Of a stretch of DNA of 64,000 bases, positions 21,511 through 58,880 are shown piece by piece (within the stretch, counting starts at the first letter, position 1; each line of letters opens with the position of its first letter). The stretch is from Candidatus Thorarchaeota archaeon (lineage in GTDB: Archaea > Asgardarchaeota > Thorarchaeia > Thorarchaeales > Thorarchaeaceae). The position numbers and the translations under genes are program-made. The notes under the pieces were generated by a model, which was not told the origin of the DNA, searched no databases, and worked only from the letters and a program-made list of their open reading frames with translations. The stretch is from positions 1 to 64,000 of the forward strand of contig PRDH01000078.1 in assembly GCA_003345545.1 (NCBI GenBank), written 5' to 3'.

Positions 21511-21647
21511 TGGTGGGCCGGGGGAGACTTGTTCCGACAGGGACTTCCCAAGTCGTTTGAACTCCCGGTCTCTTGCATTCTGTGACTTGAGGCGCGAATT
21601 CCTCAGTCGCCCCAAGCAAGAATCATACCAAGCTAGACTACCGACCC
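21511..21647 (-). tRNA. tRNA-Pro(GGG) with two introns
   Basis: On the minus strand the acceptor arms GGGTCGG and CCGGCCC pair fully (one G-T), the discriminator is A and CCA is encoded at 21511-21513. The D stem is GTC/GAT, the anticodon stem CTTGC/GCAAG, and the anticodon GGG is at 21611-21613. The first intron is 21578-21609 (32 bases), at the usual 37/38 site. Bulges GGC and AAT flank a four-position helix that includes one mismatch, then a GACT/AGTC intron stem. The second intron is 21529-21556 (28 bases) inside the T loop. It makes a near-ideal bulge-helix-bulge: GTTC/GAAC helix, three-base bulges AAA and AAG, and CGAC/GTCG intron stem. Removal leaves T loop TTCAAGT and T stem GGGAG/CTCCC. 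A minus TATA (CTTTATTTT) is near 21675-21684. Confidence 0.9.
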
Positions 21648-21706
21648 GTGCTAGCGAAGTCGGTATCTGAATTCAAAATAAAGATTGCCTCAGAGCACAT
21701 ATATTC

Positions 21707-21718
21707 GAACACGTGTTC
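21707..21718. promoter_or_regulatory. Palindromic operator GAACACGTGTTC upstream of the deacetylase gene
   Basis: A perfect 12-base palindrome in the gap between tRNA-Pro and the HDAC-family gene, about 20 bases before a TATA-like ATACTTATC (21740-21748). The same 12-mer occurs twice, and close variants twice, around 55.6-56.3 kb. Confidence 0.6.
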
Positions 21719-21801: not shown

Positions 21802-22866
21802 TTGGTCACCGATCTTGTATTTCACGAGGCCTTCACCAAGCATGAGATGTCAATGGGACACCCTGAGAGTCCTGAAAGATTGAGAAGTGCAATGATGTAC
21901 ATCAAGAGGGCAGGTCATCTTAAGGACCCGAATTTGAATATCCTGACGCCAATGCCTGTGGACTTGGAGGAGGTCTATCGGATTCACGGAAAGGCATACA
22001 TAGATGGCATCCGCGAGAGTTCCTCAAGAGGCGGGGGTTTCTATACACCTGATACTGAAGTCAACGCACACACATATGAGGCAGCAGTGCTAGCGGCAGG
22101 AGGCGGCATTGATGCTGTGGACAGGATTATGGCTGGAAAGTCGAAGAATGCATTTGTATTATGTAGGCCACCTGGGCATCATGCCGAATATGAACGAGCA
22201 TTTGGTTTTTGCTTCATCAACAATATTGCAGTGGCTGCGAGTCATCTAGTGAAGGAATGTGGGCTCAATCGTGTCATGATAGTTGATTATGATGCACATC
22301 ATGGAAATGGTACTCAGAGTGCGTTCTACTCTTCGAATCGTGTGTTGTATGTCAGCCTGCATCAAGACGGAAGAACTCTGTTCCCAGGTTCAGGTTTCCC
22401 TGACGAGATGGGAAAAGGGGCAGGTCTTGGCTACACAGTGAATCTACCCATGTATCCAGGAGCTGGAAACATATCCTATGATTTGGCTTTCACAAATGTA
22501 ATCGAACCCCTTGCAGAAGTGTTCAGGCCAGAGTTTGTCCTCGTATCAGTTGGCTTTGATTGTCACTATCAGGACTCCCTGACCTCACTGGGTTTGACAA
22601 CATCAGGCATTGCAAAGATGAATGCGTGTCTAAAAGGGATTGCAGAAACCCATGCTTCTGGTAGACTGGCCTATTTCCTTGAGGGCGGCTACAATCTTGA
22701 TGCAATGGGCATGGGATCATTAAATGTAATTGAGGAATTGATGGGTGTCCCTGTCACAGAATTCAGTGATACATATACAGAGAATGATGCATGCACACGC
22801 TACACGAAAACGCTGATTGATAAGACTCTCAAGACTGCACCATTACTGAGTGAAGTCATCAAGTAG
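21802..22866 (+). CDS. HDAC-family deacetylase (class II / acetoin-utilisation type)
   Basis: A 354-residue zinc deacetylase. The catalytic segments are all present: RPPGHHAEYERAFGFCFINN with the paired active-site His, DYDAHHGNGTQSAFY with zinc ligands Asp and His, and VSVGFDCHYQD with the third Asp ligand. The order and length match histone-deacetylase-like amidohydrolases. Substrates in archaea may be acetyl-lysine or acetyl-polyamine; sequence does not decide. The TTG start at 21802 has AGGAGA ten bases before it. A palindromic operator lies in the promoter region. It converges on hel308 with a 24-base overlap of the 3' ends. Confidence 0.88.
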   Translation: MVTDLVFHEAFTKHEMSMGHPESPERLRSAMMYIKRAGHLKDPNLNILTPMPVDLEEVYRIHGKAYIDGIRESSSRGGGFYTPDTEVNAHTYEAAVLAAGGGIDAVDRIMAGKSKNAFVLCRPPGHHAEYERAFGFCFINNIAVAASHLVKECGLNRVMIVDYDAHHGNGTQSAFYSSNRVLYVSLHQDGRTLFPGSGFPDEMGKGAGLGYTVNLPMYPGAGNISYDLAFTNVIEPLAEVFRPEFVLVSVGFDCHYQDSLTSLGLTTSGIAKMNACLKGIAETHASGRLAYFLEGGYNLDAMGMGSLNVIEELMGVPVTEFSDTYTENDACTRYTKTLIDKTLKTAPLLSEVIK

Positions 22867-30222: not shown

Positions 30223-31018
30223 TAAGACCGGACAGTGTTAGGTTAGACCGTCTGAGAAAATCATGATGAGTGGTCAAATAATTCTGGATTCTCCGTAATG
30301 CGTACTTACTTGTCGTAAGTCGAAAAGGCACTACAGTTTCCATGAGTACAAGGTTTTCGGGTGGCGCGGGTTCAATTCCCCCACGAATAGTCTTCTTGCC
30401 TCCATCGAGGACTTCAAGGATAGTTTCGGGCTTCATATTCTCCAAACCAATCTCGGTCAATAGTGTCACTACCTTTCGTACGAATTTCCATAGAAAACTC
30501 GTTCCGAAAATATCTAGGAACTTGATATTCGAAATCTCACCGATGGACACATTCAGCACAGTAGTGACTGTGTTCCGTCGTTCATCAGGTTTTGATAGAA
30601 AAAGAAAGTCATTCGACCCCACTACGAGAGTGATTGCCTCTCTAATACGATCTTGATTGATACTATTCCAAGATTCGTCAAGGAAGTACCTATAATGACG
30701 AATCAGAGCCCCAGAGCGTGGTTTGAATCCCTCAGGAGCTCGTGCCCACGCCCAGAGTACAATATCCTCAGGAAGATGCTTATTAATTCCATCAATGGAG
30801 AGCCGTCTGTCAGTGCTAACCATCACAAGTTGCCCAAGGCTGTGAACGCCGCGGTCAGTTCTCCCTGATAATTGAACAGTGTGGGAGGAGTGGGGTTCTC
30901 CGCTCCATTTTGAAATGGCTCTGATAAGTTCGCCCTGGACTGTTTTCAATCCGGGCTGCATTTGAGATCCATGATAATCATCTCCAAGGTAGAACAGACG
31001 TGCCAGATAGTCTGCCAT
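30161..31018 (-). CDS. truA: tRNA pseudouridine synthase A
   Basis: A 285-residue TruA. The catalytic Asp lies in LSGRTDRGVHSLGQ; the N terminus has FYLGDDYHGSQMQPG, and FLWKFVRKVVTLLTEIGL is the conserved core helix. TruA makes pseudouridine at positions 38-40 of tRNA in the anticodon stem. It lies 14 bases after the HTH gene in the orc1-HTH-truA run. Its C-terminal tail overlaps the end of rfcL convergently, and the last 20 or so residues may be poorly conserved. Confidence 0.88.
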   Translation of the reverse strand: MADYLARLFYLGDDYHGSQMQPGLKTVQGELIRAISKWSGEPHSSHTVQLSGRTDRGVHSLGQLVMVSTDRRLSIDGINKHLPEDIVLWAWARAPEGFKPRSGALIRHYRYFLDESWNSINQDRIREAITLVVGSNDFLFLSKPDERRNTVTTVLNVSIGEISNIKFLDIFGTSFLWKFVRKVVTLLTEIGLENMKPETILEVLDGGKKTIRGGIEPAPPENLVLMETVVPFRLTTSKYALRRIQNYLTTHHDFLRRSNLTLSGLTNHFSSSIMFSQRSTSSRNP

Positions 31019-31032
31019 CAGCTGATGCTCCT

Positions 31033-31353
31033 TTACGACTCCCAGAGGTCGAATAAACTTCGTAGAGAACGAGCTCTGAGGTCCTCAATCCTGTATCGAT
31101 ATATCTTGATTCGACCGAATCGACCGTATTTCTTCTCCTCTATAAGCCCAGAGGCCACCAGCACTTTAAGATGGGACTTGGTCGAACTGTGATTGAGATT
31201 TACTCGCCTACAAAGTTCTGAGATGTTCAGTTCTGTAGACTCCGCCAGTTCCTTTAGTATTTTGATTCTTCCACGGGATGAAAGGAGGTCTTCAATCGCA
31301 ATTTTCAAGCTGCTTTCTGCCTTCACCGATATTTCACAGCTCCTTTGAATCAA
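31033..31353 (-). CDS. Winged-helix regulator downstream of orc1
   Basis: A 106-residue winged helix. The fold is clear from SSRGRIKILKELAESTELNISELCRRVNLNHSSTKSHLKVLVASGLIEEKKYGRFGRIKIYRY, with a basic wing. It overlaps the orc1 stop by 20 bases and is followed by truA. Similar short regulators are often found beside archaeal orc1/cdc6 genes, but no ligand site is visible. Target sites are unknown. Confidence 0.75.
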   Translation of the reverse strand: MIQRSCEISVKAESSLKIAIEDLLSSRGRIKILKELAESTELNISELCRRVNLNHSSTKSHLKVLVASGLIEEKKYGRFGRIKIYRYRIEDLRARSLRSLFDLWES

Positions 31354-32539
31354 GAAGACGAGCTATAAAGAGCTCCAACATTTCTGCAGGAACATCAGAG
31401 AGACCAATGAGTGTTGTCTGTCCTCTCTGTCCACTTCCCGACCGCTTTGTATCTATTATTCCATGAGCATTGAGATCTTGAACCCATTCCCAGATTTGGG
31501 TGTGCGCTCTTGGTTCTTTTCCATATTCTTCGCATGCTGCACGATACATCTCCTCAACCTCCCCGATGGTAACGTAAGCGCTACGGGTTTCCTTCAGTTG
31601 GCGAGCAGTTGCTAAGAGAAACAGTTTGTGTTGAGGTGTAAGGGTACTGAATATTTCCTTCCGTAGTTCAGGATGAGTATCAGCCTTTGCTTGGCGAGCG
31701 TAATCTGGAATGACTAGGTTTGCTTGGTTACTGTCAGCTTGTTTTCCGGCTCGCCATAAAAGCTCAATGGCATATCTGGCATCGCCCCGCTCTGATGCAA
31801 TGTCTGAGATGACATGCAGAGTTTCATCCATCACAGCGTTCTTTTCAAATGCCATTTCGACTCGGTCCCTCAGAATATCATACAAAGCATCTCTACTGTA
31901 TTTGGAGAAGTGTATGATATTACGTTGAAGCGTGCTGAGTGTACTTGGATCCAGTGTGTCTTCATCAAAAGGTATTCTGCGTCCTATCGCTATGATAGAA
32001 ACACGCTGTTTTGCATTTAGTCTATCATCAGTGAGTCGTGTTAAATCGTATAGAATGTCAGCGCCTCTTTGCCTGATGAAGTAGTCAAGTTCATCAAGAA
32101 TGAGCAGAAGATACCTATCTTCTTCATCAAGGACTTCAATCAACATCTGCAATAACTCCTCAGGGGAGTGACCTCGACGAGGAAATTCGGGTTTGAATTC
32201 ACGAAGAGCCCTTAGAAACACAAGATAGTCGGTCTTGTTGACGCGGCAATTAATGTGTATATTATGAAGATTGATCTCTCTTCGTTCTGCGGCTTGCACC
32301 AATTGTTCGGCAAATCTCTTGGCTACTGCAGTCTTTCCACTTCCGACAGGCCCTTCAATAATGAATTTATGACTTGTTCTTCCTGGCGAACGGATTAGAG
32401 TTGTAAAGTTCTGAGCAAGTGTTCGAAGCTCGGTTTGGCGATGTGGAAGGCTCTCAGGTACGTAGTCTATTGATAGAAATTGTTCAGACTTGAAAACACT
32501 ACGTCTGCTCAATTCGTCTTCGACATAATCATGAGCCAT
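31334..32539 (-). CDS. cdc6: Replication initiator Orc1/Cdc6
   Basis: A 401-residue initiator. Walker A is EGPVGSGKTAVA, Walker B LLLILDELDYF, and the sensor 1 area SIIAIGRRIPF leads into the lid and a C-terminal winged helix (about residues 315-400) ending LELFIARLLDSKEL. It binds origin repeats and loads MCM. The other genes of this locus encode MCM, GINS and RFC. The start ATG at 32539 opens MAHDYVEDELSRRSVF. An AT-rich gap of about 215 bases before tRNA-Gly may hold an origin, but I see no clear ORB element there. Confidence 0.9.
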   Translation of the reverse strand: MAHDYVEDELSRRSVFKSEQFLSIDYVPESLPHRQTELRTLAQNFTTLIRSPGRTSHKFIIEGPVGSGKTAVAKRFAEQLVQAAERREINLHNIHINCRVNKTDYLVFLRALREFKPEFPRRGHSPEELLQMLIEVLDEEDRYLLLILDELDYFIRQRGADILYDLTRLTDDRLNAKQRVSIIAIGRRIPFDEDTLDPSTLSTLQRNIIHFSKYSRDALYDILRDRVEMAFEKNAVMDETLHVISDIASERGDARYAIELLWRAGKQADSNQANLVIPDYARQAKADTHPELRKEIFSTLTPQHKLFLLATARQLKETRSAYVTIGEVEEMYRAACEEYGKEPRAHTQIWEWVQDLNAHGIIDTKRSGSGQRGQTTLIGLSDVPAEMLELFIARLLDSKEL

Positions 32540-51763: not shown

Positions 51764-52223
51764 CCCCATTGACACTAATTCACAATGGATTTCTGTGAAT
51801 GGCGCCAATATTGTGAATCCATTATGGAAATCAGTGTTTTGCATGCTTTTCGTACTCAACTAAGCAGTAATAGCTCTTCTTATCCTTGTGAATAGACACA
51901 CCCCTCCGTTTCCTATGGAACCAAGTAATCGCACATATGAAATCCTTATGACTTCATTCACAAGCCATATAATTCTGTGAATGATGAAAAGGTTGGACAA
52001 TTTCCTTATTTTAGCCTATAAAGCGTTCATAACGCTTTATTACCACTTCAAAGACGAAGAAGGACGTGACCACACAAGAAACGAGATGGACGGGTCCTGA
52101 AAGTGAGCAGGCGCGGTATGTATCTCTTATCTCCATATATACAATTCACATACTCACACTTATTTGGACGCACACTCTAGTATTCTGTGAATGGATTGAT
52201 GAAGTAGATAGTATCTTCAAGCG
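51764..52223. promoter_or_regulatory. Repeat-rich regulatory region with eight ATTCACA/TGTGAAT half-sites
   Basis: Half-sites lie at 51778-51784, 51794-51800, 51812-51818, 51887-51893, 51956-51962, 51976-51982, 52144-52150 and 52186-52192, with another inside the next gene at 52268-52274. They mix both orientations, and two pairs are inverted with short spacers. A TATA-like CATATATAC at 52134-52142 sits just before one site. A perfect inverted repeat of ten bases (arms 52018-52027 and 52031-52040) overlaps a second TATA-like CTATAAAG. The region holds no other gene that I can support. Confidence 0.65.
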
Positions 52224-52862
52224 GTGATAGAATTGAGTGATGGAGACCGAACGAACTATGTCTATGAATTCACATATTATTCTGCCCCAGGTCTCCGTGA
52301 AATCTTCCAGTGCAAGTATGTTAATCCAAATGAGGCACTCAACAGATTCAGCAAGATCCTCTCGCTGACAGAAGCACCCTTTGATTTCAAGATAGTGGTA
52401 TCCGATGAAACTATGGGCGAGGAGTCGAGCTTTCAAGTCAAGGGCGGCAGTGTAGAAGAAATGTTTGCTAAGTTCAAAGTATTCTTAGAAACCAGCACTG
52501 GCTGCAGCTTTGAGGAGGTCATTGGGGAAGTGCCAGATGCGGGGTACGATGCAAGTACTTTTGACTCTATGAGCAGCTATGACAAGATGCAGCTCATCAT
52601 CTATGCCTCTTTCAAACATGGCAAGTTCTCATCGTTGGATGTTGCTGAAATCTATGAGGATTCATTCAGTGAGGATCTGCCCAAGAGTACCGCATCAACA
52701 TATCTTGCCCGAATGTGGAATAATGGTAAGGGTCACCTAGAACGATATGGGAACCGTTCTGGATATACATACAGGCTGAAGACGGAACTAAAAGAGGTTC
52801 AGAAGGAAACTGAGAGAGCAGAAGAGATTCTGACAGCCATCCAGATGCGAGTTCGGGACTAG
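52224..52862 (+). CDS. Unknown protein with C-terminal winged helix
   Basis: A 212-residue protein. The N-terminal half (to about 115) is mixed alpha/beta with YVYEFTYYSAPGLREIFQCKYV and no known motif. Residues 120-185 look like a winged helix: KMQLIIYASFKHGKFSSLDVAEIYEDSF, LPKSTASTYLARMWNNGKGHLERYG, then a wing YTYRLKTEL. A helix rich in Glu and Lys closes it. The start may be GTG 52224 or TTG 52233; GGTGA at 52223-52227 favours the TTG. The half-site array upstream, with one site inside the gene, suggests that it binds its own promoter. Confidence 0.6.
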   Translation: MIELSDGDRTNYVYEFTYYSAPGLREIFQCKYVNPNEALNRFSKILSLTEAPFDFKIVVSDETMGEESSFQVKGGSVEEMFAKFKVFLETSTGCSFEEVIGEVPDAGYDASTFDSMSSYDKMQLIIYASFKHGKFSSLDVAEIYEDSFSEDLPKSTASTYLARMWNNGKGHLERYGNRSGYTYRLKTELKEVQKETERAEEILTAIQMRVRD

Positions 52863-52900: not shown

Positions 52901-54217
52901 TTATAGATCAGATACGTGCTCTTCGAGGGAGATACCTAGGCCTGCAAGCTCTTGAAGAATGGGGTCGTAGAGAGAGGGAATGACTGGGCGATGAACTCCT
53001 GTGAGTTTGATTTTTCCTTCAAGTATCATTCTGCTGGCAATAGCAACTGGTAGTGCTACTGTTCTTGACATAGAACTGTCACCATTAGGAATTCCATAGT
53101 CAATGAGTGTTGATGTGATCTTCTGCTTCTTGTCTTTGTACTCAACCATGAACTCATGGTGCATCACTAGCATATCACGTTCTCCGGGCGCATATTGCAG
53201 CTTCTGTTCAAAGAGATGGCAGAGTGCATCAAGCCTCGTGGTGATACCTGAGGGTATGATGACTTCATCGAGCAGTCCGAGCCATTCAAGGCGCTTCAAG
53301 ATTGGATGATTCTCTGCAATCCCGCAGAACTTGGCGACTGCGGTTCTTATGTCACCTGTTCGTGCTGATGTGAGGTTTCTCATCATGGCTGCGTATGTCA
53401 TGTTGGTCAGAGACCTCTCTTCCACATCCAGTAGACCTAGGCTTGCTATCTTATCGAGTGTTTCACACCAACCTATGTTGCGAAGGGTGCCACGGAGCAT
53501 CGTTTCTGTTTCGGGTATGTTGTAAATCTCGATGTAGGACATACTATCGCGATTAGGATACGCCTCGAAAGTGCCTAATCCTGACATTTCCATCAGCTCA
53601 TAGTTATGGAACAAGTCTCCTCCGCGAATCAGGACCTCCTTGCCATCCCGTAGAAAGTGAGCGTCATTTCTTCCAGCAAGAAGAACTCCGCGAGGAGTCC
53701 ATGATACCTTGTAGCCATATGGATTGTTATTATCATCAGGAGCTGGAAGTCCGCCAGTGACTGATGTGAAGCTCTTGACCTTACCTCCCTTGCTGTGAAC
53801 TTGATCTATTATTCGCATGGCGCTCATATGGTCGATGCCAGGGTCAACACCACACTCATTGAGAAGCAGGACTCCAGCCTTTTTGGCATCTCCCTCTAGA
53901 GCCTTCATCTCCGCAGAGATGTAGGATGTTGTACAAAAGTGCTTCTTGTGTTTTATTGCGGCCTTTGCTGCTTTGACATGATGAACATATGGGAGTAATG
54001 AACAGACAAGATCCGTTTTGGCTGTCAGCTCATCAAGAAGAGCGTCATCTGTGACTATGTTGAAAACAATAACCTCTGCATTCTCGCAACCGTCTATCAG
54101 GTGTTCAGCTTTGCTCTTTGTTCTGCTGGCAACAAAGACATGAAAGCCATTGTCACTAAGATACTGGATGTAGGGGCGAGCAACAAGTCCGGCACCCAGA
54201 CAGAGCACTTTCTTCAT
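52901..54217 (-). CDS. Saccharopine dehydrogenase (Lys9-type)
   Basis: A 438-residue enzyme with an N-terminal Rossmann fold (VLCLGAGLVARPYIQYLSDNG) and the saccharopine-reductase C domain (NECGVDPGIDHMSAMRIID, TSVTGGLPAPDDNNNPYGYKVSW). It converts saccharopine to aminoadipate semialdehyde and glutamate, or the reverse. The gene follows the lysine-ketoglutarate reductase gene by 14 bases, with AGGAGG before its ATG. In animals and plants the two activities are fused in AASS, LKR first. Here the same order is kept as two genes. Confidence 0.88.
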   Translation of the reverse strand: MKKVLCLGAGLVARPYIQYLSDNGFHVFVASRTKSKAEHLIDGCENAEVIVFNIVTDDALLDELTAKTDLVCSLLPYVHHVKAAKAAIKHKKHFCTTSYISAEMKALEGDAKKAGVLLLNECGVDPGIDHMSAMRIIDQVHSKGGKVKSFTSVTGGLPAPDDNNNPYGYKVSWTPRGVLLAGRNDAHFLRDGKEVLIRGGDLFHNYELMEMSGLGTFEAYPNRDSMSYIEIYNIPETETMLRGTLRNIGWCETLDKIASLGLLDVEERSLTNMTYAAMMRNLTSARTGDIRTAVAKFCGIAENHPILKRLEWLGLLDEVIIPSGITTRLDALCHLFEQKLQYAPGERDMLVMHHEFMVEYKDKKQKITSTLIDYGIPNGDSSMSRTVALPVAIASRMILEGKIKLTGVHRPVIPSLYDPILQELAGLGISLEEHVSDL

Positions 54218-54231
54218 TTAGCGTTGTCCTC

Positions 54232-55533
54232 CTATAGGTATTCCTTAAGATATTCATAATTCTTCGTTAGTTTCCCTCGGTACGCGATGACTGCGTCCTT
54301 GATTTCTTTCGGCAGTTCAAGCTTCTCAAATGAGGATACGGTGAAATCAGCCATTGCAAATGCAGGAATGAATTGAGTCAGTGTTCCACTGAATGACATC
54401 GATGATTCTCGTGGAAGCTCACACGGCAAGTTATCGACTGCCATGACAACTGGACCATTCCCTTTCACACCAAGTTCTGCACGGTCCTCATTGATGATGT
54501 AGGTGAATGCTGGATCACCAGGTGTTGTGCTTCTTGTTGTGAACTCAATTGCACCATCAATATCACAGGAGATGTCACCAATGACACGCAACTTTCGATT
54601 AGGCTCGCTCCAGTGTTTGCGAATAAAGTCCTTCGTCACCAATCTCGGATATTTGTCAGTCCAATAGATACAATTCATTAATACAGAGAGATAGGGAACG
54701 TACTTGTGGAACACTCCAATGTAGTCGGCTTTTCCCGCGTTGTAGTAGTCTTGAAGATTGAACTTTATTGATGGACTCCTAGGCTCAACCATGTGTTCTT
54801 CCTTGAAGATGCATTTGTACAAGACATTCTCTTTTGGTTCGAGGGTTGAGAGCTTATTTGGTTGTGTTACTTCATGAGGCAGGGTATCGAAGATCTCTTG
54901 GGCTCCTCGAGAAACATTACCGTAACCGGCAAATCCAACAACGAACGGCGTGAGCTCCTTGGGAAGTCCTTGGTCATTGATTCGTTTACCCAAGAGCCTG
55001 AATTCTTCAGTAACCGCTGCTAGGCTCTTCAGTTTCAATGTTGATCTCATCCCAGCAAATGGATTAGGATTAACACCCTCTACTTTTAGTCGCTCTCCAA
55101 GAACATGGAAAGTATCTCCAATACCGGCCATCCCTGCCCAATTGCCAAAAAAGATGAGACGTTTTCCTTTCTGGTCCACAACGCGTTCGTAGTCAACAAG
55201 GGTTGCACCTGCTTGGAGTATGTTTCGAAGCATGGGCATGTTGTGCTCCTGCCCCTTGATTGTGTGGCTGAAGAAAACATAGACGACATCTTTCTCGAAG
55301 AAGCCAATTGGCATCTCCTTGATTCCGAAGACTACTTGCGCACCGCTACCTTTCAGAGGAGTGATGGTTGCGCCGACTTTCTTGTATTCATTTTCGGAGA
55401 AAGCGCGTTGTTTGTTAGGTTCTATAATGAAGTCGATTTTGTGTTGATCTCGTAAAGACTTGACATGATCAGGTATCAGTGGAACTCTGGATTCAAAAGC
55501 CTTCTCTTCTTTACGCAGACCAATGCGATTCAT
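54232..55533 (-). CDS. Lysine-ketoglutarate reductase (LKR half of AASS)
   Basis: A 433-residue protein of the alanine dehydrogenase/LKR superfamily. RKEEKAFESRVPLIPDHVKSL is the N-terminal lysine-pathway signature, KEMPIGFFEKDVVYVFFSHTIKGQEHNM follows, and FVVGFAGYGNVSRGAQEIFDTL is the NAD(P)-binding loop. It closely resembles the first half of eukaryotic AASS rather than fungal LYS1. The pair with the next gene suggests lysine degradation through saccharopine. AGAGGA precedes the ATG. A hairpin-forming repeat lies in the leader. Confidence 0.85.
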   Translation of the reverse strand: MNRIGLRKEEKAFESRVPLIPDHVKSLRDQHKIDFIIEPNKQRAFSENEYKKVGATITPLKGSGAQVVFGIKEMPIGFFEKDVVYVFFSHTIKGQEHNMPMLRNILQAGATLVDYERVVDQKGKRLIFFGNWAGMAGIGDTFHVLGERLKVEGVNPNPFAGMRSTLKLKSLAAVTEEFRLLGKRINDQGLPKELTPFVVGFAGYGNVSRGAQEIFDTLPHEVTQPNKLSTLEPKENVLYKCIFKEEHMVEPRSPSIKFNLQDYYNAGKADYIGVFHKYVPYLSVLMNCIYWTDKYPRLVTKDFIRKHWSEPNRKLRVIGDISCDIDGAIEFTTRSTTPGDPAFTYIINEDRAELGVKGNGPVVMAVDNLPCELPRESSMSFSGTLTQFIPAFAMADFTVSSFEKLELPKEIKDAVIAYRGKLTKNYEYLKEYL

Positions 55534-55654: not shown

Positions 55655-55666
55655 GAACATGTGTTC
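55655..55666. promoter_or_regulatory. Operator variant GAACATGTGTTC
   Basis: Arms GAACA and TGTTC match the palindrome family seen upstream of the deacetylase gene and iorA. It lies 21 bases before the GTG at 55688. Confidence 0.5.
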
Positions 55667-55687
55667 TGTGATACTGGTCTGAGTGAA

Positions 55688-55975
55688 GTGGTTTCGTATC
55701 TCTATCTTTACGACTGTAGGCATGCGAGGCAGAGTAATGCGCGTCGAGTAGCATTTACGAAGGAGTTGTACGGATATACGTACACATGGCGAACTAAGTC
55801 TGAAATAAGAGAAAAACGCAAACAAGGTCTGTTGGACGAATGTTCAGGAGCTGAAGCAGTAGCAGACTCAGCGATCATTGTTCCTGATGAGCATCGAAGT
55901 ATATTTGACAGTCTGTTTTCAATGTACCAGGATATTCTCAAATTCAGAGTCTATCAGATTGTAAAGGAAGTGTGA
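55688..55975 (+). CDS. Small conserved-looking protein of unknown function
   Basis: A 95-residue protein if it begins at GTG 55688; an earlier GTG at 55661 lies inside a palindromic operator and is less likely. It has SYLYLYDCRHARQSNARRVAFTKELYGYTYTWR, then KQGLLDECSGAEAVADSAIIVPDEH and a final hydrophobic strand. The many Tyr and Arg residues and the LLDE...VADSAI segment suggest a globular nucleic-acid-related domain, but I cannot name a family. It stands alone between two divergent operons and is flanked by operator palindromes on both sides. Confidence 0.5.
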   Translation: MVSYLYLYDCRHARQSNARRVAFTKELYGYTYTWRTKSEIREKRKQGLLDECSGAEAVADSAIIVPDEHRSIFDSLFSMYQDILKFRVYQIVKEV

Positions 55976-56372
55976 AGCGGGTGGTAGCTCGAGTCTTGGA
56001 ACACGTGTTCGAGTGACTCTTACGTACATACACTTCTGCATGAGGTCAAAAGACTATTGGAGTAACACCCCTTCATTTCCACTGCAGGTGATAAAAATAG
56101 AGTGTTGATCAGCGACTAATGGTATGATGATAAAAATGGAGATAAGAACCAGCTCTCGAAACAGCTATTTATACTTACCGGTATCTAAATGTATAATAAC
56201 TTCTTTGACCATTTCGAGTGGAAATGGTAGGGTCATATAGGACCTGGAACACGTGTTCTATCTATCTTCCTACACAAACTTGGAACACATGTTCTGTGTA
56301 TTTTCCATTACCACAAGACTGATACATTACTCTTAGTCAAGCTGCAATCAGGCTCAATTTGGAGGATCTTTA
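55976..56372. promoter_or_regulatory. iorA leader region with three GAACACGTGTTC-type operators
   Basis: Palindromes lie at 55999-56010 (GAACACGTGTTC), 56247-56258 (the same) and 56283-56294 (GAACACATGTTC). A TATA-like CTATTTATAC sits at 56164-56173. Two operators fall downstream of it, where a bound repressor would block transcription. A direct repeat TGATAAAAAT lies near 56090 and 56128. No gene is visible in these 397 bases. Confidence 0.6.
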
Positions 56373-58265
56373 TTGTCCGAATTCCATGAACTACTTGAAA
56401 ACAAACCAGGGAAGAAAGTACTACTCCTAGCGAATGAGGCAATTGCACGAGGTGTCTTGGAAGCCGGAGTGCGCGTTGTTGCTCTCTATCCAGGAACACC
56501 CAGTAGCGAAATCGGCGACAATCTCACTCTCATGGCACCACATATTCCTAACTTCTATTTTGAATTCAGCACAAATGAGAAGGTCGCATTGGAAGTGGCT
56601 GGAGCCGCCGCAGTAGCTGGAGTCCGATCCATGATGGTGTGCAAGGGTCCTGGCTTGAATGTTGCTGCAGATCCCTTTTTGACGCTCGCATACGTCGGAG
56701 TTCGGGCTGGGATGGTCATAGTTGTTGCAGATGATCCCAGTATGTGGAGCTCACAAAACGAGAATGACAGTAGATACTATGCACTGATGGGGAATATGCC
56801 TATGATGGAACCCTCTGATCCCATCGAGGCAAAATCGATGCTTCTTGATGCATTCAAATTCTCAGAGATGTTTGAGCTCCCTGTACTCTTTAGAACAACC
56901 ACACGAGTGAACCATACGCGAGCACCTATTGAGTTCGAGGAGATACCTGTTCTGCCACACAAGGTGCAATTTCAAAAAGATCCGCTCCGATTTGTGCCAA
57001 TACCGTCTGTCGCAAGAACTCGTCATCCATGGCTTCTTAGTCAAATCGAAAAAGCTCGGGAATTCTCCGAAACCAGCACATTGAACTCTACGGAGGGACA
57101 GGGAGAACTGGGAATCATCACATCAGGTGTATCCTATAACTATGTCAAAGAGTCCCTTGCTCAGATGGGCATTCATGCGGAAGTCTTGAAACTTGGGATC
57201 ACTCATCCAATCCCAGAAAACAAGGTCACAGATTTTCTACGTCGCCATAGAAGAGTCATCACTGTCGAAGAGCTAGAACCATTCATCGAAACTCACGCTC
57301 GACGATTGGCTCAGCTCAACTCCATCAAAGTCGAGATTCTTGGCAAAGAACAAGGATACTTTTCGAAGGTAGGAGAATATAGTCCTCGTATCGTTATGGA
57401 GGCATTATGTAGACTCCAAAATTGTAATACACCTATTAACTGGCAAGACATTGACAAGAGATTTCATGGAATCTCCGACATTCCTCCGAGACCACCCCTT
57501 CTCTGTGCAGGCTGTCCTCATCGAGCCACCTACTACGCAATCCGAACAGCAACACGAGGAAAAGCTATCTATCCTTCAGATATCGGATGCTATACACTGA
57601 GCATTGCGCCGCCTCTGGAAACTGCAGACATCTTGTTCGATATGGGTTCATCGATAACTACAGCATGTGGACTCTCTGAGGTCACCGATCAGGATGTCGT
57701 TGCCACAATAGGTGACAGTACATTCTTCGCGTCAGGATTACCCGGGATAATCGATGCAGTATACAATCAACATCGAATGTGTCTGGTGGTACTAGACAAT
57801 CGAACGACTGCGATGACCGGTCAGCAGCCGCATCCAGGCACAGGAATTACAGGCATGCAGAAAGAGGTTCCAGCGATAGACATTGAAAAAGTCTGTAAAG
57901 GCCTTGGTGTCAACTACGTTAAGACGATTCATCCCTTCGAGTCGATAGCCGGTCTTGTTGGTAAAATAAGAGAGATGGTCAAATGGGCTAGGGACAATCA
58001 CAGCCCAGCAGTACTCATCTCAAGAGAACCATGTGCACTTTTGACAGCAGCCGATCGTCGCCGCCAAGGAATTCCATTACCCAAGTACTATGTTGAATCC
58101 GAAACCTGTACTGCGTGTAAACGTTGTCTCAATCGCTTATCCTGTCCAGCGATGTACGTGGATCCCGAAACAGAAAAAGCTGTCATTGATGACAATCTGT
58201 GTAATCTCTGCGGCACCTGTGTTGCAGTATGTCCCCAGGGTGCAATCAAGAGGGAGGAGAAATAG
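56373..58265 (+). CDS. iorA: Indolepyruvate ferredoxin oxidoreductase, alpha subunit
   Basis: A 630-residue enzyme subunit. The pyrimidine domain opens VVALYPGTPSSEIGDNLTLMAPHI. The TPP domain has the GDSTFFASGLPGIIDAVYNQH signature. The C terminus carries two [4Fe-4S] motifs: CTACKRCLNRLSC and CNLCGTCVAVCP. The enzyme converts indolepyruvate and other aryl pyruvates to acyl-CoA with reduced ferredoxin, in aromatic amino acid breakdown. The start is TTG 56373 with GGAGG eight bases before. iorB follows directly. Several palindromic operators lie upstream. Confidence 0.95.
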   Translation: MSEFHELLENKPGKKVLLLANEAIARGVLEAGVRVVALYPGTPSSEIGDNLTLMAPHIPNFYFEFSTNEKVALEVAGAAAVAGVRSMMVCKGPGLNVAADPFLTLAYVGVRAGMVIVVADDPSMWSSQNENDSRYYALMGNMPMMEPSDPIEAKSMLLDAFKFSEMFELPVLFRTTTRVNHTRAPIEFEEIPVLPHKVQFQKDPLRFVPIPSVARTRHPWLLSQIEKAREFSETSTLNSTEGQGELGIITSGVSYNYVKESLAQMGIHAEVLKLGITHPIPENKVTDFLRRHRRVITVEELEPFIETHARRLAQLNSIKVEILGKEQGYFSKVGEYSPRIVMEALCRLQNCNTPINWQDIDKRFHGISDIPPRPPLLCAGCPHRATYYAIRTATRGKAIYPSDIGCYTLSIAPPLETADILFDMGSSITTACGLSEVTDQDVVATIGDSTFFASGLPGIIDAVYNQHRMCLVVLDNRTTAMTGQQPHPGTGITGMQKEVPAIDIEKVCKGLGVNYVKTIHPFESIAGLVGKIREMVKWARDNHSPAVLISREPCALLTAADRRRQGIPLPKYYVESETCTACKRCLNRLSCPAMYVDPETEKAVIDDNLCNLCGTCVAVCPQGAIKREEK

Positions 58266-58880
58266 ATGAATGCCAATAATCATAACACGATAAACATCGC
58301 AATCACTGGCGTAGGAGGCCAAGGTGTTCTAACCCTTGCAGAGATACTCGCAAAGGCCGCGCTAGCTGAGCAGCTCAATGTGAGAGTCGGAGAAATCCAT
58401 GGGATGGCTCAACGCGGTGGTCATGTTGTTTGCACAGTGAGGATAGGTACAGATGCTATGGGTCCAATCATTGACTCAGGCACTGCAGACCTACTTGTAG
58501 GTTTTGAACCAGTAGAAACCTTGAGAGAGATTCATCTGATAAAGAAGAACGGGTGTGTGCTGATGAGCTCACATGTTCAATACCCCGTTGCTGTTTCTAT
58601 GGGAACAACAGAGTATCCCACACACGAATCGATCCTCCAATCAATCAGGGGATTTACAAAGCGCATCATTGATTTTGATGCAATGGATCTTGCTCAGAAT
58701 TCTGGAAGCTCCTATGCTCTCAACATGGTGATGTTTGGAGCAATCATCGGCACCGGTATTGTTCCCATCAGCAAGGAATCTGCCTTGCGTGCTATCCGAG
58801 AATCATTTCCTAAGAAATTTGAGAAAATCAACATACAAGCCGCTGAGGCTGGTTTCGATAGAGTCAAATCATGCGTGTGA
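58266..58880 (+). CDS. iorB: Indolepyruvate ferredoxin oxidoreductase, beta subunit
   Basis: A 204-residue gamma/beta-type subunit: NIAITGVGGQGVLTLAEILAKAAL, then VRVGEIHGMAQRGGHVVCTVRIG, the usual POR gamma-domain pattern that binds CoA. It completes the IorAB heterodimer. The ATG follows the iorA stop with GGGAGGAG inside the iorA tail, so the two are co-translated. It converges on hypF with 17 bases between the stops. Confidence 0.95.
   Translation: MNANNHNTINIAITGVGGQGVLTLAEILAKAALAEQLNVRVGEIHGMAQRGGHVVCTVRIGTDAMGPIIDSGTADLLVGFEPVETLREIHLIKKNGCVLMSSHVQYPVAVSMGTTEYPTHESILQSIRGFTKRIIDFDAMDLAQNSGSSYALNMVMFGAIIGTGIVPISKESALRAIRESFPKKFEKINIQAAEAGFDRVKSCV

Follow-up and report, generated by a model that had tools for sequence, protein, structure and literature searches.

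We found that the palindromes clustered at positions 55655-56294 of the window (the whole stretch of DNA analysed here, 64,000 nucleotides from a Candidatus Thorarchaeota archaeon) probably belong to a chromosomal replication origin of this archaeon, which they flank as an Asgard-specific element, and we put the probability of this reading at roughly 78%. Archaeal origins are defined by an origin recognition box (ORB), an AT-rich core and a further ORB near replication genes (PMC4010727; PMC12141716), and at the level of sequence the locus has the ORB pair, the AT-rich core, a fixed geometry, conservation in multiple Asgard groups and near-uniqueness of its ORBs. An origin is the most likely identity of the cluster because other Asgard groups keep the small gene f8, the palindromes and the ORBs together without iorA. 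An earlier note had taken these palindromes for a regulon of iorAB, a deacetylase and a small gene, a tempting metabolic reading that was mostly wrong and that the origin finding corrects. We infer that replication starts at the f8-iorA locus (Table 1).

Table 1. Features of the predicted origin region and other elements in the window.
Feature	Position	Strand	Remarks
Dispersed palindrome	21707..21718		exact; 84 bp upstream of HDAC-family gene
HDAC-family deacetylase	21802..22866	+	
Orc1/Cdc6 initiator gene	31334..32539	-	about 23 kb from origin core
Third ORB-like box	51899..51919	-	ahead of f3; position kept at about 4 kb from f8
f3	52233..52862	+	C-terminal part winged-helix-like (weak Pfam hit in a relative); found together with f8 in Asgard groups
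Saccharopine-dehydrogenase-like gene	52901..54217	-	
Lysine-ketoglutarate-reductase-like gene	54232..55533	-	AlaDh_PNT domains
Palindrome P1	55655..55666		GAACATGTGTTC; 21 bp ahead of f8 GTG start
f8, 95-aa protein gene	55688..55975	+	Asgard-specific family; palindromes on both sides
Palindrome P2	55999..56010		exact; 24 bp past f8 stop, 56 bp outside left ORB
Left ORB	56066..56086	-	TGCAGTGGAAATGAAGGGGT on minus strand
AT-rich core	56087..56212		between ORBs; AT 0.67 (window 0.55); candidate duplex unwinding element
Right ORB	56213..56233	+	TTCGAGTGGAAATGGTAGGGT; degenerate in window, better conserved in relatives
Palindrome P3	56247..56258		exact; 13 bp outside right ORB
Palindrome P4	56283..56294		GAACACATGTTC
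Conserved ACCACAAGACTGATACA	56310..56326	+	upstream of iorA; strongly kept in most Thorarchaeia
iorA	56373..58265	+	indolepyruvate oxidoreductase alpha-like; TPP enzyme and POR domains
iorB-like	58266..58880	+	from translation

The palindrome was confirmed at all five positions previously reported, three copies being the exact 12-mer GAACACGTGTTC and two differing from it by one mismatch. A genome scan, as the earlier note had proposed, gave an excess over the reversed-pattern control at both scales: five exact copies against none in the source genome (2.69 Mb), and 268 against five in the Thorarchaeota family, where each of the 37 sampled genomes held 2-13 exact copies. In other families of the phylum the exact palindrome was nearly absent. 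Since family-wide counts far exceed the control and the motif nearly disappears outside the family, we regard it as real and lineage-specific. The remaining two copies in the source genome were found on contig C68 (position 800), where an Elp3-like gene and a second gene converge at their 3' ends, and on contig C81 (position 50874), within a PolX-like gene.

The full site was an 18-bp palindrome, TTRGAACAYRTGTTCYAA, with the extended consensus TTRGAACACGTGTTCYAA (98 copies from about a dozen genera) and natural variants in which the centre was altered to TG, CA or TA. Purine/pyrimidine choices at the outer two positions were independent of each other (21/28/15/18, p = 0.996), which argues for a dimer site on double-stranded DNA and is unlike a hairpin; this lack of covariation led us to reject an RNA hairpin or terminator. 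The palindrome is thus probably bound as double-stranded DNA by a protein with two-fold symmetry. Rather than being spread evenly inside coding regions, 84 of the 98 sampled copies were intergenic and 14 were inside genes, with about 85% of the sequence coding. The earlier statement that all copies lie in upstream regions needs correction: P2 follows the f8 stop codon, and across the family seven of the 98 copies fell between convergent genes, besides the 14 within genes.

The published common ORB motif is TCCA[CG]T[TG]GAAA[TC][GA]AAGGGGT (PMC4164010). It was detected as an inverted pair in the f8-iorA spacer of 25 of 27 Thorarchaeia loci at the stricter score; with relaxed scores and the window counted in, every one of 28 loci had the pair. 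Spacing between the two ORBs was 139-151 bp over these 28 loci (median 144), and the AT content of the core between them ranged from 0.61 to 0.81. Genome-wide ORB matches with at most two mismatches numbered 1-5 per genome in 12 genomes (control, 0), and in Thorarchaeia holding the f8 locus they were confined to this locus (the f3 upstream box counted as part of it) or to the leader of the gene f9. The source genome gave a single such match, at 56067-56086, which is the left ORB, and in the one-contig relative G036 (800 kb sampled) the strongest three of five matches were all at the f8 locus. GC skew in the same relative (31% sampled) had no two-arm pattern (p = 0.48). The gap upstream of Orc1 (30223-31333) was rejected as a candidate origin, an ORB match being absent there.

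The palindromes flanked the Thorarchaeia ORB pair from outside, and 19 of 28 loci had one exactly 13 bp from an ORB, the side (left or right) depending on the lineage. Nearly all Thorarchaeia loci had a palindrome 8-27 bp ahead of the f8 start, most had a second one 0-46 bp past its stop, and the cluster usually comprised 2-4 copies. Helical phasing of the palindrome-ORB gaps was rejected, as the R of 0.63 over all loci was lost with unique gaps (p = 0.28). We also observed that a further pair of motifs, GTAATAC-like and GTATTAC separated by a short spacer, recurs near palindromes in origin spacers (for example L150-L156, upstream of iorA) and upstream of f8. The region upstream of f3 (51764-52232) contains many TTCTGTGAATGG/TTGTGAAT-like repeats plus an ORB-like box, and at 52901-55533 lysine-ketoglutarate reductase and saccharopine dehydrogenase are encoded as a split pair that recalls AASS, the lysine-degradation enzyme of eukaryotes; this pair adjoins the predicted origin in Thorarchaeia.

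Comparison with other Asgard groups separated the palindrome from iorA. Among named genomes, the nearest relatives of the window were Candidatus Thorarchaeota. Nearly all members of the Thorarchaeota family carried f8, as did certain other Asgard families. The 36 f8 loci that we retrieved from named genomes were without exception Asgard, and each had at least one palindrome, in one case with a single base of the 12-mer changed. Beyond the family, the strict 18-mer occurred in 11 of 13 genomes with f8 versus 2 of 39 without it (Fisher p = 9e-8, a value overstated because the genomes are related), and nine of these 11 carried it at the f8 locus, the other two (G072 and G079) having a 17-of-18 match there. 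In Jordarchaeia, Borrarchaeum/Sifarchaeum and a fourth group, f8, palindromes and ORBs were found together, mostly beside Orc1/Cdc6, with most origin-proximal palindromes some 10-60 bp from an ORB. The neighbours of f8 outside the family were mostly f3, Orc1/Cdc6 and the DNA polymerase D small subunit; Orc1/Cdc6 lay within a few kb of the f8 locus in Jordarchaeia, Borrarchaeum and others. At the f8/palindrome loci of the other Asgard groups examined, iorA was absent.

These distributions did not support the supposed link between aryl-pyruvate oxidation and deacetylation, as the palindromes stay with f8, ORBs and mostly Orc1/Cdc6 where iorA is absent, and within Thorarchaeia what they flank is the predicted origin, with its AT-rich core between inverted ORBs. 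There the site does lie upstream of the HDAC gene and iorA, as had been claimed, but outside the family it does not follow iorA. Two genomes of one group (G038 and G047) had f8 beside an ORB pair and no palindrome, so the palindrome is not a constant companion of f8. G034, which has palindromes and no f8, was rejected as a counter-example and is uninformative because its assembly is 86% complete and lacks f3 and the iorA orthologue as well as f8.

Under the origin reading, Orc1/Cdc6 would bind the two inverted ORBs around the AT-rich stretch, as expected by homology, while 18-bp palindromes would flank this core and bracket the origin-linked f8. By analogy with UBP at Sulfolobus oriC1, the palindrome-bound protein would help or control initiation next to Orc1. 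f8 would be autoregulated through P1, just ahead of its start codon, and the dispersed copies (HDAC, f9 and others) would serve as secondary sites where the same protein affects transcription or is titrated.

The best candidate for this protein is f8, a tentative choice to which we give somewhat less than even odds. It is favoured because it is bracketed by sites, follows them across groups and has a basic N-terminal half (net +6 to +12; the C-terminal half is acidic). The winged-helix protein f3 was rejected as the main binder, being present in many Asgard genomes without the palindrome; because f3 is far more widespread, the palindrome follows f8 better than f3. f8 had no family match in Pfam or NCBIfam, no recognised DNA-binding fold and no viral relatives among our searches, and its profile found no related protein, UBP included, among the sequences of solved structures. 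Its structure model (pLDDT 93) had a ferredoxin-like fold with a long beta-hairpin; the fold search yielded nothing decisive, with many ferredoxin-like chains tied and UBP not among the matches listed. Distant homologues in one Asgard family are 190 aa long and carry a winged helix at the C-terminus (Pfam HTH_45, E 1e-4); in the model of such a homologue, the final 70 residues aligned with MarR-type regulators (Z 11.8, rmsd 1.4). At L138 (3852-3873), a different 22-bp palindrome, ATTTCATTGAATTCAATGAAAT, adjoins an f8-like gene fused to a winged helix. It is conceivable, although we think it rather unlikely, that f8 represents a new Asgard-specific origin-binding family that sits as a dimer on the ORB-side palindromes, regulates its own gene as well as Orc1/MCM action at the origin, and through dispersed sites links replication to other genes, a histone-deacetylase homologue among them.

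The palindrome is not an origin-only element, because the dispersed copies, except perhaps those at f9, are not origins. The most conserved dispersed copy, seen in 13 genomes, separates f9 from the rubrerythrin-like gene f0 and is followed some 60-75 bp downstream by a TATA-like box, TTTATAT; copies upstream of an HDAC-family gene recur in six genomes from three genera; this recurrence makes some regulatory role plausible. Other dispersed copies were at gene ends (Elp3, asparaginase-like) or upstream of F420 ligase/topoisomerase VI. These copies may be regulatory sites of the same protein, and the UBP of Sulfolobus likewise has regulatory sites (PMC12141716), so a part of the regulon idea survives: the sequence-specific, mostly intergenic and strongly conserved palindrome stood, while the purpose assigned to the cluster, joining aryl-pyruvate oxidation with deacetylation, was not supported.

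Most f9 leaders contained an ORB-like box, seen as TCCATTGGAAACGAAGGGGT for example in L090 (4013-4180), L078 (reverse) and L104 and often placed within a GGAACCCC...GGGGTTCC inverted repeat, and many also carried a GGCCGGGAGGCC element. The leader had no match in Rfam; it may fold as a structured RNA or serve as a site for Orc1. A search with a single f9 relative as query did not find the gene in the source genome. Near the HDAC gene of the window, the minus strand at 21519-21650 has a tRNA-like stretch with a probable intron and no ARAGORN call. In G073, where f8 was not found, L181 has two TTAGAACATATGTTCTAA sites (4932 and 6945), one of them directly after an HDAC-like gene.

The regulatory pattern of the dispersed copies raises the possibility that the palindrome is a conventional operator, on which a dimeric regulator (f8 or another protein) acts upstream of iorAB, f8, the lysine-degradation genes, HDAC, f9 and others, and that its closeness to the ORBs merely reflects where f8 is located. 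Palindrome density was indeed 1.37 per kb in tandem and 1.10 in divergent spacers but 0.49 in convergent ones, most sites in tandem spacers were 75-200 bp ahead of the start codon, and the f9 and HDAC targets are repeated, the former with the TATA-like box downstream of the site. However, the palindrome remains with ORBs and f8 where iorA is absent, the 13-bp gap to the ORB is fixed in most loci, the seven sites between convergent genes are hard to place in such a scheme, and the targets beyond f9, HDAC and the origin mostly differ between genomes. We therefore hold the operator possible but doubtful.

The bacterial parS/ParB system offers another model, in which the palindrome is a centromere-like partition site and f8 or a ParB/SegB-like protein loads at the origin-near copies. 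The palindromic form is shared, as are several copies near the origin with some more on the same contig, and the palindrome centre, CACGTG, is also found in bacterial parS. Asgard genomes encode ParA and ParB homologues (PMC7617429). Yet the arms differ from parS, copies are dispersed (scattered over the chromosome in the one-contig genome G034) and number only 1-3 outside Thorarchaeia, and neither a ParA-type gene nor a ParB/ParA operon was recognised among the neighbours examined; a partition site is accordingly improbable. Less credible still, indeed very improbable, is a small mobile or REP-like element that f8 would spread, as RAYT proteins do with REP palindromes in bacteria. f8 is bracketed by the palindrome and copies are scattered in intergenic DNA, as this would predict, but positions are kept across genera (f8, f9, HDAC), hairpin covariation is lacking at the outer positions, inspection of f8 revealed no HUH motif and the copy number is steady at about 2-15.

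The predicted origin is a concrete, testable unit: its layout is defined, it spans a few hundred bp, and a candidate factor goes with it. Asgard archaea are the archaeal group closest to eukaryotes, and the palindrome points to a new replication helper element among them; within the limits of our search, the open literature contained no description of a Thorarchaeota replication origin or of a similar Asgard motif. The f8 fold recalls Cas2, whose chains gave its model the best Foldseek probability (0.99, with E-values about 0.05), and the CRISPR-associated chain 5h1o_A headed the VIA list (Z 7.5, rmsd 2.5, 71 residues). This likeness is one of fold only, with Z in the common-fold range and tied with many unrelated chains, and no CRISPR genes were recognised near f8.

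With the ORB-DUE-ORB origins of Sulfolobus (oriC1), Pyrococcus and haloarchaea, the predicted Thorarchaeia origin shares inverted ORBs, an AT-rich core and an intergenic position, those origins lying near replication genes (PMC4010727, PMC4164010). It differs from them in adding the 18-bp palindrome, which is not among the motifs given in those papers, and in its surroundings, Orc1/Cdc6 being about 23 kb away and the neighbours being iorAB and lysine-degradation genes. A parallel in role can be drawn with the ucm motif of Sulfolobus oriC1 and its binding protein UBP, and it bears on the question left by that work, namely whether analogous origin proteins exist in divergent archaeal lineages (PMC12141716). 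Both ucm and the palindrome are non-ORB origin motifs that are also dispersed and mostly intergenic, and both may be served by small basic proteins, UBP having 111 aa and a pI of 9.3 (PMC12141716) and f8 having 95 aa and a pI mostly of 8.5-9.5. In contrast, ucm is 11 bp long and located between the ORBs, whereas the Asgard palindrome is 18 bp long and lies outside them, and UBP acts as a monomer on ucm at more than 300 sites (PMC12141716), whereas the palindrome has far fewer copies and f8 as its candidate binder.
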